This document shows, one piece after another, positions 29,132 through 37,601 of a stretch of 64,000 bases of DNA; the stretch's first letter is position 1, and each line of letters begins with the position of its first letter. The stretch lies in NCBI GenBank assembly GCA_029945665.1, contig JAQSCZ010000109.1, forward strand, positions 17,886 through 81,885. Reading direction: 5' to 3'. Source of the stretch: a bacterium. Its GTDB lineage: Bacteria; Bacteroidota; Bacteroidia; NS11-12g; UBA955. A model generated the notes under the pieces. It was not told where the DNA came from. It did not search any database and worked only from the letters and a program-made list of their open reading frames with translations. The translations under genes were made by a program, and so were the position numbers.

Positions 29132-29683
29132 ATGAACACAGCACACTTAATACCAATTTCTTTCGATTTTATGTTGCAAAAAGAAATATCCGCAATGAAA
29201 GGTTTGGCAATGCAATTAACCAAAAATTCGGATGATGCGGATGATTTGGTTCAGGAGACGATTCTTAAGGCTTTGCGTTACCAAGGTAAGTTTACCGAAG
29301 GCACAAATTTCAGAGGTTGGTTATTAACCATTCTAAAAAATAGCTTTATAAACAACTATCGCAGAATGGTGAAGCGCAATACATTCTTAGATGCAACTGA
29401 CAATACCTTCTTCTTAGATATCCCTTCTCACAGAACAGAAAATCAAGCAGAACTAAAGTTTATAAGAAAAGATTTAGAAGCTGCTATTACCTCATTGCCA
29501 ACTGAACTCAAAGTAACTTTCATGTTAAATGTTGAAGGATTTAAATACCATGAAATTGCTGAAGAACTAAATATTCCAATTGGAACTGTTAAAACCCGTA
29601 TATTCGTTGCACGCAGAATACTCCGCAAAAAACTTTATGTTTATGGCGAAGAATACGGTTTCAACAAATCAATAAATGAATAG
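29132..29683 (+). CDS. ECF-type RNA polymerase sigma factor
   Basis: DDADDLVQETILKALRYQGKFTEGTNFRGWLLTILKNSFINNYRR, region 4 FKYHEIAEELNIPIGTVKTRIFVARRILRKKL. Confidence 0.95.
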   Translation: MNTAHLIPISFDFMLQKEISAMKGLAMQLTKNSDDADDLVQETILKALRYQGKFTEGTNFRGWLLTILKNSFINNYRRMVKRNTFLDATDNTFFLDIPSHRTENQAELKFIRKDLEAAITSLPTELKVTFMLNVEGFKYHEIAEELNIPIGTVKTRIFVARRILRKKLYVYGEEYGFNKSINE

Positions 29684-30386
29684 TTTATATCTTTGGATTA
29701 ATATACTCACGCTGCTTTTTCCCTTGCTACTTTCTTTTGATAAAAAAGTAGCTTTTTACAAACGTTGGAAATATCTCTTTCCCGCCATTGCTCTAACCGC
29801 CACTTTCTTTTTAATTTGGGATGAATGGTTTACTCAAATGCATATTTGGGGCTTTAATGCCAAATATTTGTTGGGATATTATATTGGCAATTTGCCGATA
29901 GAAGAAATCATTTTCTTTTTTACAGTGCCCTATGCTTGTATCTTTATTTTCGAGGTAATTAAAGCTTATGTAAAACACAGTGAATTATTCGAAGATTTAC
30001 ACCGTTGGTTTACCATGTTGTTTTTTGGTATAGCAATAACCTTACTTTATTGGTACACCGATAAACTGTATACTGCCATCACTTGTATTATTCTTTCTTT
30101 GATTCTAGGCACACATTTAATTGTGATAAGAAGACGCTACATGAGTTGGTTTTATTTTGCCTTCCTAGTCTCCATTATTCCCATGTTAATTGTCAATGGC
30201 TTGCTTACTGCCAAACCTGTGGTTTATTACGACACAACGCAACAAATTGACCTAAGGTTAGGCACCATACCTGTTGAAGATTTTATTTACAACCTCACCA
30301 TGCTTACCATGTGTATCGGCTTATATCAATGGTTTATGCGTCTTGGTCTCCGACGCCAGTTACGCCACCAGAAACAATCATCTTAA
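29676..30386 (+). CDS. Lycopene cyclase domain-containing protein (CrtYcd type)
   Basis: Multiple TM helices with IWDEWFTQMHIWGFNAKYLLGYYIGNLPIEEIIFFFTVPYACIFIFE and second-half LRLGTIPVEDFIYNLTMLTMCIGLYQ. Confidence 0.9.
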   Translation: MNSLYLWINILTLLFPLLLSFDKKVAFYKRWKYLFPAIALTATFFLIWDEWFTQMHIWGFNAKYLLGYYIGNLPIEEIIFFFTVPYACIFIFEVIKAYVKHSELFEDLHRWFTMLFFGIAITLLYWYTDKLYTAITCIILSLILGTHLIVIRRRYMSWFYFAFLVSIIPMLIVNGLLTAKPVVYYDTTQQIDLRLGTIPVEDFIYNLTMLTMCIGLYQWFMRLGLRRQLRHQKQSS

Positions 30387-32400: not shown

Positions 32401-34809
32401 TTAATGATTCACTAGAATCTTTTGAACCACCATATCTCCATTTGCAGAAAAGATATACAGATAATATATACCACTATCCAACGTACTTACATCAACTTGT
32501 GTAGAGGCTTCAAGCTCATTTTGCACCCACGCTTTTTGCAACACCACTTTGCCACTTAAGTCGGCTATTGAAATGGTTAGAGGCACTATGCTTGTAAACT
32601 TAACAGCTATGTTCAACTGGGTATTAGCAGGATTCGGATAGATGGAAGCACTGCTAATATGTTCCTTGTGTTGTTTGCAAACATCGGTGTATTTACAAGG
32701 CAAAGAAATGACTGAATCGGAAGGAATAACAGCTGCTTTTAATTCTTTTTGTATGGCTTCACTTTCTTGCTTAGGTAACAATTTTAAAAATGCTGGAGTG
32801 GCAGCATACCATAACAAGTAATCGGGACGGGCAGATTTTTCAACCATATCAATTACATTATAACTTCTACCTGTTTTTACTAAAACTGGAATTAAATGAT
32901 TAAAATCTAAAGACTTTTCACTCGTATCATTTGAGAATTTAATATAAGTATTCTTTCCTAAATCATCTGTAATATATTCGGGCAAAATACTTCTTGAAAA
33001 TACCAAATCAACATTTCCTGATTCAATGCTAGTGCCATTTTTGGTAAGTGTCAAAATAGTTGCATGCAATTTTTCAGTCGTTTGGATTTGTGAAGGTACT
33101 TTTGTATCTATTTTTACAAAAAATCTCAGATTATTGTCTACAACTCGGTACCCTAACTGTTCCGATTGAATTAATGAACCTGGCAAAGGATTTATTTTAT
33201 CAAACTGGGCTTTAGGTGCGTAGTAAATATCCTTTAAATCGGGCATGGGCAAAGCCGCAGTAGATATTTGGGCCGACTGAAAGAGCAGTTTGTTTTTAGC
33301 ACTGTCTTGCATTATGGTATTGGCAATAGCAAGTTGTTTATGATCTAAACAATTTAAAAAGCGAGGGGTGTTTTCGTACCAATAATATTGGACTTGTGAA
33401 AGTGGTCCGAAATTCACCCTAACAGGGGTTAACATATGTTTTTGATTGAGGAAGGCTTGTAAATTATTCTCATCATCATTGCTACTTGCCCGCAGATACT
33501 CCAAATCATGTTCATTGCTTAGGGAGTCGCTTACAAATAAAGGAATAGGTAGTTTGTATTTGTTTTTTACTTCATCGTAATAAGCAGCCGATGGGCAATC
33601 CGAAATGATATTGGTGGTAGAATCTTTTACATAAACCTTGTAATGAAATTGACCTGACTTCAATTTTATACTTAAATTATTATTTTTTTCTGTTTTAAAA
33701 CCCAGTTTGCTTAATAAATTTTTATCTGCACTGATACTTCTCACGTCTTTCAATAAATCTACTTTTGATGCATTCCATTCAGCTAACATTTTTTTCAATA
33801 AAGCTGGATCAGCATTTTTACTTATTTCAACTTGCTTGTATTGTCTACCCGATTTCATATCCCAAGAAAAAGTATCAGGATTCGCTTTCAGCTCTGATTG
33901 TACCCTTGCTGGCAAAAGTGATATGTAATAGTTGCTCTTAGGCAACCAAAAAATCATTTCGTTTGAATAATAAGGATGGGGTTTATCGAGTTTATTAGAG
34001 ACTAAAATTGGCAAATATTTTTTATGGTTATTATAAATTTCTAAAGTGTCTTTTAGATTTTTTCTATTTAACATACCATAGGCTTTGGTCATCCAAATAT
34101 TGGTAATCAATGTTGGATATTTATCAGGATGTGCCAATACCGAAAGCGTTCCACCACTAAAAGTGGTTGAGTAACTTGACCCTTTCACTATGTATGAAAA
34201 ACTAAAAGGGTTGCGTTTGCTAAGAGTTTCTTCATAAAAAATGCCTCCATCTTTGCCTACTATGCCTAGCCTGTATAATTCTTCGTTACTTAACCTTAAA
34301 AAGGAATTGTTTTTCACCATTAATTTTTCTTCAACTTTAACGCTTGGTAATTTTAAAGTATCGATTGGTTGTGGCAAAGTGATATTGGCATTTTCAAACA
34401 ATTGTTCAAGATTTGAATTTGGCAACTCTTCTACTTTAATCTCATTTTCTAAAATCGGTTTTTGAAAGAAAGGAGGTTCATTTATTCTTTCATTTACTTC
34501 AATATTTTTAAAAGTATTTTCTTTTACTTCATCAAATACTAATTCTGTATTTTTAGGTTCTTCTTTTGGTGTTGTTATTATTTGCGGTGCTGCAAGCACA
34601 GGTGTTTTAGTTGTTGGTGTTGCAAGTAAATAGGCAACGACAGCTATTATTGAAAGACTTCCCATTATGATACTAATTTTTTTGATTGAATATTTTTTAC
34701 CAACTTTAATATTTTGCAATTGATGCTCTACCTCCTGAACGGTTTTCAATTCAGGCAGACCTTTTTCAAATTGTTCAAACAGCGATTGTAAGGTTTTATC
34801 TTGATCCAT
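32401..34809 (-). CDS. Single-TM protein in anti-sigma position with C-terminal T9SS type A sorting domain
   Basis: About 46 aa N-terminal segment, TM ISIIMGSLSIIAVVAYLLA, proline-rich linker, C-terminus SIYPNPANTQLNIAVKFTSIVPLTISIADLSGKVVLQ...LDSGIYYLYIFSANGDMVVQKILVNH; overlaps ECF sigma gene. Confidence 0.85.
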   Translation of the reverse strand: MDQDKTLQSLFEQFEKGLPELKTVQEVEHQLQNIKVGKKYSIKKISIIMGSLSIIAVVAYLLATPTTKTPVLAAPQIITTPKEEPKNTELVFDEVKENTFKNIEVNERINEPPFFQKPILENEIKVEELPNSNLEQLFENANITLPQPIDTLKLPSVKVEEKLMVKNNSFLRLSNEELYRLGIVGKDGGIFYEETLSKRNPFSFSYIVKGSSYSTTFSGGTLSVLAHPDKYPTLITNIWMTKAYGMLNRKNLKDTLEIYNNHKKYLPILVSNKLDKPHPYYSNEMIFWLPKSNYYISLLPARVQSELKANPDTFSWDMKSGRQYKQVEISKNADPALLKKMLAEWNASKVDLLKDVRSISADKNLLSKLGFKTEKNNNLSIKLKSGQFHYKVYVKDSTTNIISDCPSAAYYDEVKNKYKLPIPLFVSDSLSNEHDLEYLRASSNDDENNLQAFLNQKHMLTPVRVNFGPLSQVQYYWYENTPRFLNCLDHKQLAIANTIMQDSAKNKLLFQSAQISTAALPMPDLKDIYYAPKAQFDKINPLPGSLIQSEQLGYRVVDNNLRFFVKIDTKVPSQIQTTEKLHATILTLTKNGTSIESGNVDLVFSRSILPEYITDDLGKNTYIKFSNDTSEKSLDFNHLIPVLVKTGRSYNVIDMVEKSARPDYLLWYAATPAFLKLLPKQESEAIQKELKAAVIPSDSVISLPCKYTDVCKQHKEHISSASIYPNPANTQLNIAVKFTSIVPLTISIADLSGKVVLQKAWVQNELEASTQVDVSTLDSGIYYLYIFSANGDMVVQKILVNH

Positions 34810-35338
34810 ATTTGAGGCTTGTGTTTTCTTTAGTAGTTTCAGGGTTCAACAGTGCTTTTAATTTTTCACGTCCGCGCAGTAAGCGGGTTTTAATCGTATT
34901 ATCATTCGTGTTTTGTATCTCGGCAATTTCTTTAATACTGAAGCCTTGCAATTCGAACAACACAATGGCATCTCTCATTTCAGTATTTAGTTTTTGCAAC
35001 GCTTTGTGCAGGTAATAATAATCTGCCGTTATTTCTGCAGTATGCTGTTGATCCTTTATATACAAAAGCGCCTCCGCTGCCACAAATATTTTAGTACTCA
35101 TTTTTCTTCTTTCATTATTGGTAATGCGTGAGGCAATGCCGAATAAAAAATATTTGAATTTATCTTCTACTTTTAATCTTTCAAATTTGGTAAATGCAAT
35201 TTCAATTGTAGCCGACATCAAGTCGCTAGCATCGTCTCTGTTATTTGTCAAAGCAATGCAATAGGCATTTAATTGCTTGTGACATTGTTCATACAACAAC
35301 ATAAAGCGCTCCTTTTTATTTTGTTCTGCTTGCTTCAA
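34796..35338 (-). CDS. ECF-type RNA polymerase sigma factor
   Basis: RDDASDLMSATIEIAFTKFERLK, FKYFLFGIASRITNNERRK, GFSIKEIAEIQNTNDNTIKTRLLRGREKLKALL. Confidence 0.92.
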   Translation of the reverse strand: MKQAEQNKKERFMLLYEQCHKQLNAYCIALTNNRDDASDLMSATIEIAFTKFERLKVEDKFKYFLFGIASRITNNERRKMSTKIFVAAEALLYIKDQQHTAEITADYYYLHKALQKLNTEMRDAIVLFELQGFSIKEIAEIQNTNDNTIKTRLLRGREKLKALLNPETTKENTSLKYGSR

Positions 35339-35650
35339 TACTGAATTGGGTACCCTTAATTAGTGTAACGAAAGTATCAAAAGTTTCATGGAATCTAAAA
35401 ATATTTGAAAAGCACTTCATTTTTCTCAAAAAATATTTTCATTCTAAGTCTACTAAAAAATAACCTAATCTATTCGCAATTCCTTTTTTACGCAGTAAAA
35501 ATAACTTTTAAGCACTTCTTCAAATCAATCTTTCATTTAGTGAAATTGAATTCAGTAAACCCTTTTATTTTTACTTAAACCTATAAAAAAACTTATATCA
35601 CTTATGCGGTTAAAATTTTTCTTTTTATGTTTGTAAGGAAAATCTATTGA

Positions 35651-35998
35651 ATGAACATTGAACAATACAGAGAATACTGCTTAAGCAAACCCGGCACTTC
35701 CGAAGATTTGCCTTTTGGACCAGATACCCTCGTAATGAAAGTGGGTGGCAAATTATTTGCACTTTGCAATATCGACCATTTCGTAAGCATCAATCTAAAG
35801 TGCGACCCAGAAAAGGCAGTTATTTTACGCGAACAACATGAACAAATTATTCCAGGCTGGCATATGAATAAGAAACATTGGAACACTGTTGTTATAGACG
35901 GCTTATCAGAAAAATTAATTCTAGAATTGATCGACCACAGTTACGAATTGGTAAGAAATAGTTTGCCAAGAAAAATAAAAGCCGAATTGGATTTATAA
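35651..35998 (+). CDS. MmcQ/YjbR family DNA-binding protein
   Basis: MNIEQYREYCLSKPGTSEDLPFGPDTLVMKVGGKLFAL, KHWNTVVIDGLSEKLILELIDHSYELVRNSLPRK. Confidence 0.93.
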   Translation: MNIEQYREYCLSKPGTSEDLPFGPDTLVMKVGGKLFALCNIDHFVSINLKCDPEKAVILREQHEQIIPGWHMNKKHWNTVVIDGLSEKLILELIDHSYELVRNSLPRKIKAELDL

Positions 35999-36007
35999 AC
36001 AAGGCCC

Positions 36008-36427
36008 CTAAAATCCGAGCAAACTAATCACCTCTCTTGGGGTTAAAACGGGTAAAGTACTTAGCTTAAAATCTTTACTATCACGGGTTATAATCATTTC
36101 CACTTTTTTATTAGAAAGTGCGCACTGATATTGAATTGCATCTTCGAAATCTTTGAATCCAAAACGCATAGCATCACTAATTATTTTGCCGGAAACATCA
36201 ATTACTTCCGTCCATTCAAATAACTCTTCTAACATTCGCATTACTTCATTCTGAGAACCATATTGACGCATAATATAAAAAATATTATTGTATGAGACTG
36301 CAGAAACGTGAATGACAATTTCTCGCTTTAAAGCCCTATCAAACAAACTTGCTGCATCATTCGCAAAGGGCTTTCTATCTGCCAAAAAATCAATGATTAC
36401 GTTAGTATCCAGAAAAACATGCGTCAT
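36008..36427 (-). CDS. PIN-domain toxin (VapC-like)
   Basis: VFLDTNVIIDFLADRKPF, FEDAIQYQCALSNKKVEMIITRDSKDF. Confidence 0.9.
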   Translation of the reverse strand: MTHVFLDTNVIIDFLADRKPFANDAASLFDRALKREIVIHVSAVSYNNIFYIMRQYGSQNEVMRMLEELFEWTEVIDVSGKIISDAMRFGFKDFEDAIQYQCALSNKKVEMIITRDSKDFKLSTLPVLTPREVISLLGF

Positions 36428-36672
36428 AAACGGTGCTTTTTCGAAAGTGCTTTACCCAACTCAACTTTATAATCAAAATTATCAGGCAATTGTATCGAAC
36501 CCTTTAGTTTCAATACCCGAGGTGAAATTTTTTCTTCTTTAAACTCTTTTGCTGTCAAAGACTTTAAATAATTTTCTATTAATGCCGACAAGCTTTCGCC
36601 TTTCTTTTTAGCATATTTTTTAGCAACTGAAATAACAGAATCATCTATGGTTAGTGTCAACTTTGTATTCAT
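36424..36672 (-). CDS. Cognate antitoxin (DUF6364-like)
   Basis: MNTKLTLTIDDSVISVAKKYAKKKGESLSALIENYLKSL; 4 bp overlap with the PIN toxin. Confidence 0.88.
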   Translation of the reverse strand: MNTKLTLTIDDSVISVAKKYAKKKGESLSALIENYLKSLTAKEFKEEKISPRVLKLKGSIQLPDNFDYKVELGKALSKKHRL

Positions 36673-36787
36673 TACACGTGTAAATTTAATTACAAATATA
36701 CGTGTAATTTAGATTTTAATTGCCAATTTTAATTTATTTTACCTTATTTTTATCTTTAAAGAAATATTTCTATTCCCTATTGAAACA

Positions 36788-36887
36788 AAAAGCATTGGAA
36801 CAAGGTTCATTTAGACGGCTTACCAGAAAAATTAATTCTAGAATTGATCGACCACAGTTACGAATTGGTACGAAATAGTTTGCCAAG
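36788..36887 (+). pseudogene. 3' fragment of an MmcQ/YjbR family gene (partial duplication)
   Basis: Encodes HWN-KVHLDGLPEKLILELIDHSYELVRNSLP; about 78 bp nearly identical to 35894-35971. Confidence 0.85.
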
Positions 36888-36919
36888 TTGTTGTGTCATC
36901 ATATATGATGACACAACAA
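36888..36919. repeat. Perfect 32 bp palindrome
   Basis: ttgttgtgtcatcatatatgatgacacaacaa equals its own reverse complement. Confidence 0.95.
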
Positions 36920-36933
36920 ATAATCCAAATTCT

Positions 36934-37488
36934 CTATATCCTTTTTCTTTTACCCCAATTACTTGGATTCTCTTTTATATAATTCTTAACCCGGGCAAAT
37001 TCGTCATAGTCTCTTATCAAACGGTCGTAAAACCTTGGCTGCCATTGAAATTCTTCGAACCCATTTTTACCACACCAACGGTTAACCTCTGCCTTGAATT
37101 GTTGAATAATAACGGAAACTGAACCTGCAACGGGCCTCGAAAATTGATTGTTTTTGAACTCCTTTTGTACCAATATTGAATTTGAAGCTGATGGTTTCTT
37201 TAAAGTTAAATTTAGATGCACATGATCGGGCATGACAATAAACTCATCTACCTCTGCATCGCAAAAATGCTGAGATAACTCTTGCAAGCAGGCCTGAACC
37301 CTGCTTCCAATGTCATTGAGGAGCATTTCCTTTTCGTGATTAAGTCCAATAGAAAAACTATTATTATCAGGAGATATAATTTCACCAAAAAAATGCACTC
37401 TGTTTTTTGTATTCATGGTAATGAAATAATCCCCAGGCGAAGAATAATCATAATTCCGAAGTCGCACATGTTTCCGTATATGAAGCAT
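36934..37488 (-). mobile_element. Y1 (HUH) transposase-like / RAYT-family protein
   Basis: YDYSSPGDYFITMNTKNRVHFFGEI and VDEFIVMPDHVHLNLTLKK (HUH); WQPRFYDRLIRDYDEFARVKNYIKENPSNW. Confidence 0.9.
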
Positions 37489-37601
37489 AGTTATTAGTTT
37501 AATCAAAAATAAAAATAAGTTTTTTATTTGCAAATTTTAGTTCCTATTTAATTTATTACAATCTTTTGAAACAAAAACCAATCACCACTTGTCATAGTAA
37601 C

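Follow-up and report, generated by a model that had tools for sequence, protein, structure and literature searches.

A putative anti-sigma factor of the Bacteroidota with a type IX secretion sorting domain at its C-terminus

The Dma anti-sigma factors are the closest described counterparts of the protein considered here; as portrayed in the part of PMC13088901 that cites Pardue 2024, they are linked to ECF sigma factors, end in a beta-barrel and are addressed to the outer membrane. FecI/FecR also combines an ECF sigma factor with a regulator that has a single transmembrane (TM) helix, and it reads an event at the outer membrane. Cargo of the type IX secretion system (T9SS) with a type A C-terminal sorting domain (CTD; PF18962/TIGR04183) normally has a cleavable Sec signal peptide, and one CTD protein, PorA of Porphyromonas gingivalis, is tied to ECF sigma activity in the PorXY-SigP pathway. 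A surface protein of 246 aa that bears a signal sequence, PorA acts in the pathway ahead of a two-component system and is found in Porphyromonas only (PMC7712824). Little is settled about the way in which bacteria with a T9SS sense their secretion load or what happens beyond the outer membrane; in P. gingivalis the trigger of PorXY-SigP is unknown (PMC7712824).

The locus described here lies in a window of 64,000 nucleotides (the whole stretch of DNA that was analysed) on contig C109 of a Bacteroidota assembly (G000; 3.79 Mb, 98.8% complete, 150 matches to the T9SS type A domain), and consists of an ECF sigma gene and a longer partner gene (Table 1). Like the Dma proteins, the partner is ECF-linked and combines an N-terminal segment (sigma-binding in Dma, a candidate for that role here), one TM helix, a linker and an outer-membrane-addressed C-terminal module; unlike the Dma proteins as that source describes them, it carries repeats and ends in a T9SS CTD with no beta-barrel, and its ECF falls in a clade separate from the barrel-linked ECFs in a tree without a reference for ECF21, the sigma group that partners Dma proteins. 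It shares with T9SS type A cargo a CTD above the curated cut-offs and a genome that encodes SprA, but it is fused to a cytoplasmic domain beside an ECF, has no cleavable N-terminal signal peptide and is predicted to remain anchored in the inner membrane. The preliminary description of the locus had drawn an analogy to PorXY-SigP, which holds loosely: a CTD protein is linked to an ECF in both, but PorA is a separate, signal-sequence-bearing protein that works via the two-component system and is not an anti-sigma factor (PMC7712824), whereas the partner is a putative anti-sigma factor anchored in the inner membrane. Unlike FecI/FecR, the partner has no FecR domain (Pfam, up to E=1), and no TonB-dependent receptor is encoded at the sigma/partner locus. 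No CTD-bearing anti-sigma factor was found in the literature searched, although an earlier mention may exist in Pardue 2024 (PNAS) or Casas-Pastor 2021 (NAR).

Table 1. Features of the sigma/partner locus, with coordinates in the window
Feature	Coordinates	Strand	Basis
Putative ECF autoregulatory promoter, TGAAACTTTT-N14-ACTAAT	35359..35388	-	motif searches
ECF sigma factor, 180 aa, TTG start	34796..35338	-	region 2 aa 15-79, region 4 aa 109-160
Overlap of sigma 3' end and partner 5' end, 14 bp	34796..34809	-	both ORFs
Putative anti-sigma factor with T9SS CTD, 802 aa	32401..34809	-	ORF, Pfam
Cytoplasmic N-terminus aa 1-44, candidate sigma-binding domain	34678..34809	-	phylum-wide motif, dN/dS
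Single TM helix aa 45-63	34621..34677	-	hydropathy, flanking charge
Variable linker aa 64-165	34315..34620	-	dN/dS 0.57-0.73
Repeat 1, about aa 170-312 (W288)	33874..34302	-	hhalign vs repeat 3 E=3e-11
Repeat 2, about aa 358-505 (W477)	33295..33738	-	hhalign vs repeat 3 E=1.5e-11
Repeat 3, about aa 545-693 (W667)	32731..33177	-	hhalign vs repeats 1, 2
CxYxxxC motif aa 705-711, immediately before CTD	32677..32697	-	relatives
T9SS type A C-terminal sorting domain aa 723-800	32410..32643	-	PF18962, TIGR04183

Both ORFs lie where the preliminary description had placed them and overlap by the 14 bp that it gave (34796-34809). The sigma protein has regions 2 and 4 only, with Sigma70_r2 and r4_2 both over the Pfam cut-offs; if its TTG start were replaced by the nearest ATG (Met13), residues that can be aligned in relatives would be cut off. 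Other features of the window deserve mention. A second sigma-70-family gene (29132-29683), which belongs to a different ECF clade and is conserved in relatives, overlaps by 8 bp the gene of a polytopic membrane protein that resembles lycopene cyclase (29676-30386). A 104-bp direct repeat (90%; 35867-35970 and 36784-36887) flanks an apparent PIN-toxin/antitoxin pair (36008-36672), with a gene like those of REP-associated transposases (36934-37533) and a perfect 16+16 palindrome (36888-36919) nearby, and this region looks like an insertion that duplicated part of the upstream gene.

The layout proposed earlier for the partner, a short N-terminus followed by one TM helix, a long extracytoplasmic part and a type A CTD, is borne out by hydropathy and by matches to PF18962 (50.3 bits, E=3e-13, cut-off 27) and TIGR04183 (45.9 bits, E=4e-12, cut-off 23), the CTD being the sole known domain that Pfam recognises in the protein. 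The extracytoplasmic part is formed by three diverged repeats of ~190 aa, the homology of which was confirmed by profile comparison. Pfam and PDB sequence searches with the repeat gave nothing significant, and an AlphaFold2 model of it (from nine rows; pLDDT 56 in one of five models) had no Foldseek match in the PDB. The AlphaFold2 model of the full partner is weak (pLDDT 33, from three close sequences), and in this low-confidence model the N-terminus forms two helices, the linker has no structure and the CTD appears as seven strands. The CxYxxxC motif lies ~98 aa from the C-terminus in 12/12 class-level relatives. A motif in the N-terminus, L..LF..a+...P.l...e...l, is common to relatives across the phylum, and an N-terminal profile had no significant match (probability 5%) to the N-termini of the barrel-type partners encoded in the same genome.

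Relatives were sought with profiles that contained neither the CTD nor the sigma factor, and the presence of the CTD and the linkage to an ECF are therefore independent of the search. Thirty-four intact ECF-linked relatives were found in 26 genomes across the phylum; every one has an ECF gene directly upstream (within 10 bp in 28 and overlapping in 21), one TM helix and a C-terminal CTD. The co-occurrence of ECF, TM helix and CTD in homologues thus exceeds chance, and the objection that homologues might lack the CTD has failed. The number of repeats varies from one to three, and the distance from TM helix to CTD from about 200 to 700 aa. Members from the genus or order are those of G012 and G006 (76-77% identity), G017 (36%), G077 (26%) and G103 (22%), with a frameshifted copy in G075, and those from the class are in G146, G479, G445 and G181, while the copies in G415 and G435 are partial or unlinked. 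A further 27 loci come from the remainder of the phylum sample, of which 24 are intact and ECF-linked, one is ECF-linked and decayed (L168), and two (L145, 3079-3975; L161, 2750-3625) encode the repeat and CTD as short secreted proteins with ordinary signal peptides and no ECF. The gene after these two, as after L151, L158 and L159, looks by motif like that of a large VIT-type protein. Two damaged copies, the frameshifted L091 (G075) and the decayed L168 (G548), still have recognisable ECF sequence and a CTD. The CTD was confirmed with Pfam and NCBIfam in every member sampled, and nearly all the proteins scanned are over the curated cut-offs; the weakest are L155 (22.6 bits, under the Pfam cut-off) and L153 (27.9 bits, just over it).

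In a 77-row tree all 34 CTD-linked ECFs fall in one clade (100/99), together with three ECFs that have no CTD link: two (G019, G423) with TM partners that lack a CTD, and one (G005) whose partner lies off the contig. Since the G019 and G423 partners have no CTD, the core switch can work with other extracytoplasmic parts and the CTD is dispensable for it. We note that the partners at L110 (G423; coiled-coil-like) and L082 (G019; an unknown protein of 555 aa) are natural swaps of the extracytoplasmic part. The source genome, G006, G012, G017 and G077 each have a single copy of a bipartite element, TGAAACTTT-N14..16-ACTDAT, which lies directly upstream of the clade ECF. Its first half, TGNRACYTTTT, stands upstream of 16/31 clade ECFs (shuffle mean 0.3, maximum 3), a pattern picked after the sequences had been inspected; it is also present at G019 and G005 and at 0/15 other ECFs of the source genome, these controls having come later. 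This clade-specific element is probably an autoregulatory promoter. In the five genomes the strict pattern found only the ECF locus itself, and because a relaxed pattern gave no more matches than its reversed control, we claim no regulon beyond the locus.

A survey of ECF loci in the source genome revealed another arrangement of this kind. At L064 (G000:C97:5500-12100) an ECF gene overlaps that of a 297-aa partner with a TM helix at residues 55-73, a linker of ~135 aa and a type B CTD (CHU_C; PF13585 33.7 bits, cut-off 27; TIGR04131 under its cut-off), so that only linker and CTD lie outside the membrane. Orthologues are present in seven more genomes, two of them of other genera (L220, L221, L222, L223, L225, L230 and L231); in the source genome the next gene encodes a very large secreted protein. 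The type B ECFs group with ECFs whose partners have barrel-like ends, one of which (L239) is over the Pfam barrel cut-off, and sit well apart from the type A clade (100/100). T9SS CTDs have thus been gained at least twice on anti-sigma-type proteins. That type B CTD partners have barrel-ended sisters suggests that an outer-membrane address is what is selected, and the coupling of secretion status to sigma release, a hypothesis of the preliminary description, becomes more credible because the CTD is the only extracytoplasmic domain of the type B partners. Three further ECF/TM-partner pairs in this genome (L066, L068 and L072, on contigs C5, C15 and C55) are followed by a T9SS cargo gene (DUF7619 and type A CTD), which suggests an operon of ECF, barrel-type partner and cargo.

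Gene order, the N-terminus, the TM helix and the apparent autoregulation together make it highly probable that the partner is the anti-sigma factor of the ECF sigma factor encoded beside it. In the mechanism that we favour, the partner would bind the sigma factor through its N-terminus and so keep it at the inner membrane, cross that membrane with a single uncleaved TM helix and the periplasm with the linker and one to three repeats, and pass its far end, by means of the sorting domain, to the type IX machinery in the outer membrane. By handing over its far end in this way, the molecule would bridge both membranes as the barrel-ended Dma proteins do. A change in the T9SS or at the outer surface (docking, translocation, or processing or loss of the CTD) would then trigger regulated proteolysis near the TM helix and free the sigma factor to transcribe its own operon. 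We put at about even the chance that the partner does bridge both membranes and read events at the T9SS or the surface. Two things make this the best-supported reading: the Dma analogy, and the way in which a barrel or either type of CTD seems able to occupy the same position. The observed distances between TM helix and CTD allow bridging, although in the shortest relatives, with only ~200 aa, the repeat may be periplasmic and not surface-exposed. Counting against bridging, the literature searched contained no report of a protein being exported by the T9SS while still anchored in the inner membrane.

Weighed alone, the window protein could pass for ordinary T9SS cargo, with a true start near the TM segment, a cleaved signal peptide with a long n-region followed by 'PVLAAPQ', and an ECF gene as an incidental neighbour. 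Its one hydrophobic segment, with five K/R within the 15 residues before it, is followed by no Bacteroidota-type '..AQ' signal-peptidase site, and in the 34 relatives the segment begins at residues 42-79 (median 50.5), behind a lysine-rich N-terminus, commonly has an aromatic end and has no AQ-type site, several relatives even lacking small residues after the helix. Ordinary cargo encoded in this genome differs, the segment beginning mostly at residues 1-16 and ending in '..AQ' (33 CTD proteins sampled); by these sequence criteria the cleavable Sec signal peptide is missing from the partner. Moreover, the N-terminal 44 residues are conserved at the protein level (identity 0.92-0.97 and dN/dS 0.24-0.25 among close relatives), and because they are, and because their motif is common phylum-wide, the TM helix is not a misplaced signal peptide and the later start entertained in the preliminary description fails. 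With an ECF adjoining the gene in every intact relative, we consider the cargo reading highly improbable. Among close relatives dN/dS is 0.13-0.21 in the repeats, 0.20-0.32 in the CTD and 0.57-0.73 in the linker, the fastest-evolving part, and by these ratios the cytoplasmic segment and the CTD are under purifying selection. The CTD might still have ceased to be a sorting signal and persist as a periplasmic beta-sandwich that binds something else, as immunoglobulin-like folds could be reused and one or two distant members (L155, L153) score near or below the Pfam cut-off. Most members, however, are far over the cut-offs, the domain is always C-terminal and another CTD type has been recruited in a different ECF clade. 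SprA (SprA_N), moreover, always co-occurs: it is present in 33/33 genomes tested and in 18/18 repeat-positive genomes of the phylum sample, against 304/396 in that sample as a whole; the 18/18 result would be expected by chance in ~1% of cases if the genomes were independent, which they are not. We therefore regard such repurposing as quite unlikely and a working T9SS address as likely. The earlier claim of an inner-membrane-anchored putative anti-sigma factor with a genuine T9SS CTD is accordingly upheld by the conserved N-terminus, the TM helix and a CTD over the cut-offs.

The main competitor of bridging has the CTD probe T9SS capacity from within the periplasm, where reaching the surface would be unneeded: with PorV or the translocon saturated or broken, the CTD would be left unoccupied or misprocessed and the sigma factor freed. 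In the type B family, whose extracytoplasmic part is linker and CTD only, the CTD itself must be the input; the complete co-occurrence with SprA agrees with such a sensor, as does the feedback via a CTD protein that has been proposed for PorA (PMC7712824). In the type A family, however, the one to three repeats are well conserved too, suggesting an additional ligand, and since the strict promoter motif is found at no locus of the source genome other than the ECF itself, that test, stringent as it was, shows no link to T9SS genes; we rate a sensor of this kind as possible but doubtful. Alternatively, a periplasmic cut could split the product into a conventional N-terminal anti-sigma factor and an ordinary, co-made surface protein of repeats and CTD. 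Two genomes (L145, L161) do encode the repeat and CTD as free-standing proteins with normal signal peptides, and the fast-evolving linker would suit a cut, but of the 27 repeat loci at phylum level 25 are linked to an ECF, with an intact covalent fusion in 24, and the linker showed no conserved cleavage motif. Splitting is accordingly improbable, though less so than either the cargo or the repurposed-CTD reading.

Bridging by the partner thus remains our preferred reading. More tentatively, and with the odds somewhat against it, we propose that a T9SS CTD has at least twice become the part of an anti-sigma factor that senses, so that engagement of a still-anchored protein by the outer-membrane T9SS would connect the secretion machine or the cell surface physically and directly with transcription. 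Should the T9SS engage the partner, no earlier T9SS substrate anchored in the inner membrane is known to us, and the case would bear on how the translocon accepts cargo. The second ECF clade, which repeats the architecture with a different CTD type and has barrel-ended sisters, suggests a general principle in the Bacteroidota of anti-sigma factors tethered at both membranes through an interchangeable outer-membrane address. The odd pairing of a membrane anchor with an export tag may let these cells read their outer surface or their secretion machine, and an anti-sigma factor that carries a sorting signal and is conserved across the phylum would offer a one-protein, directly testable link.
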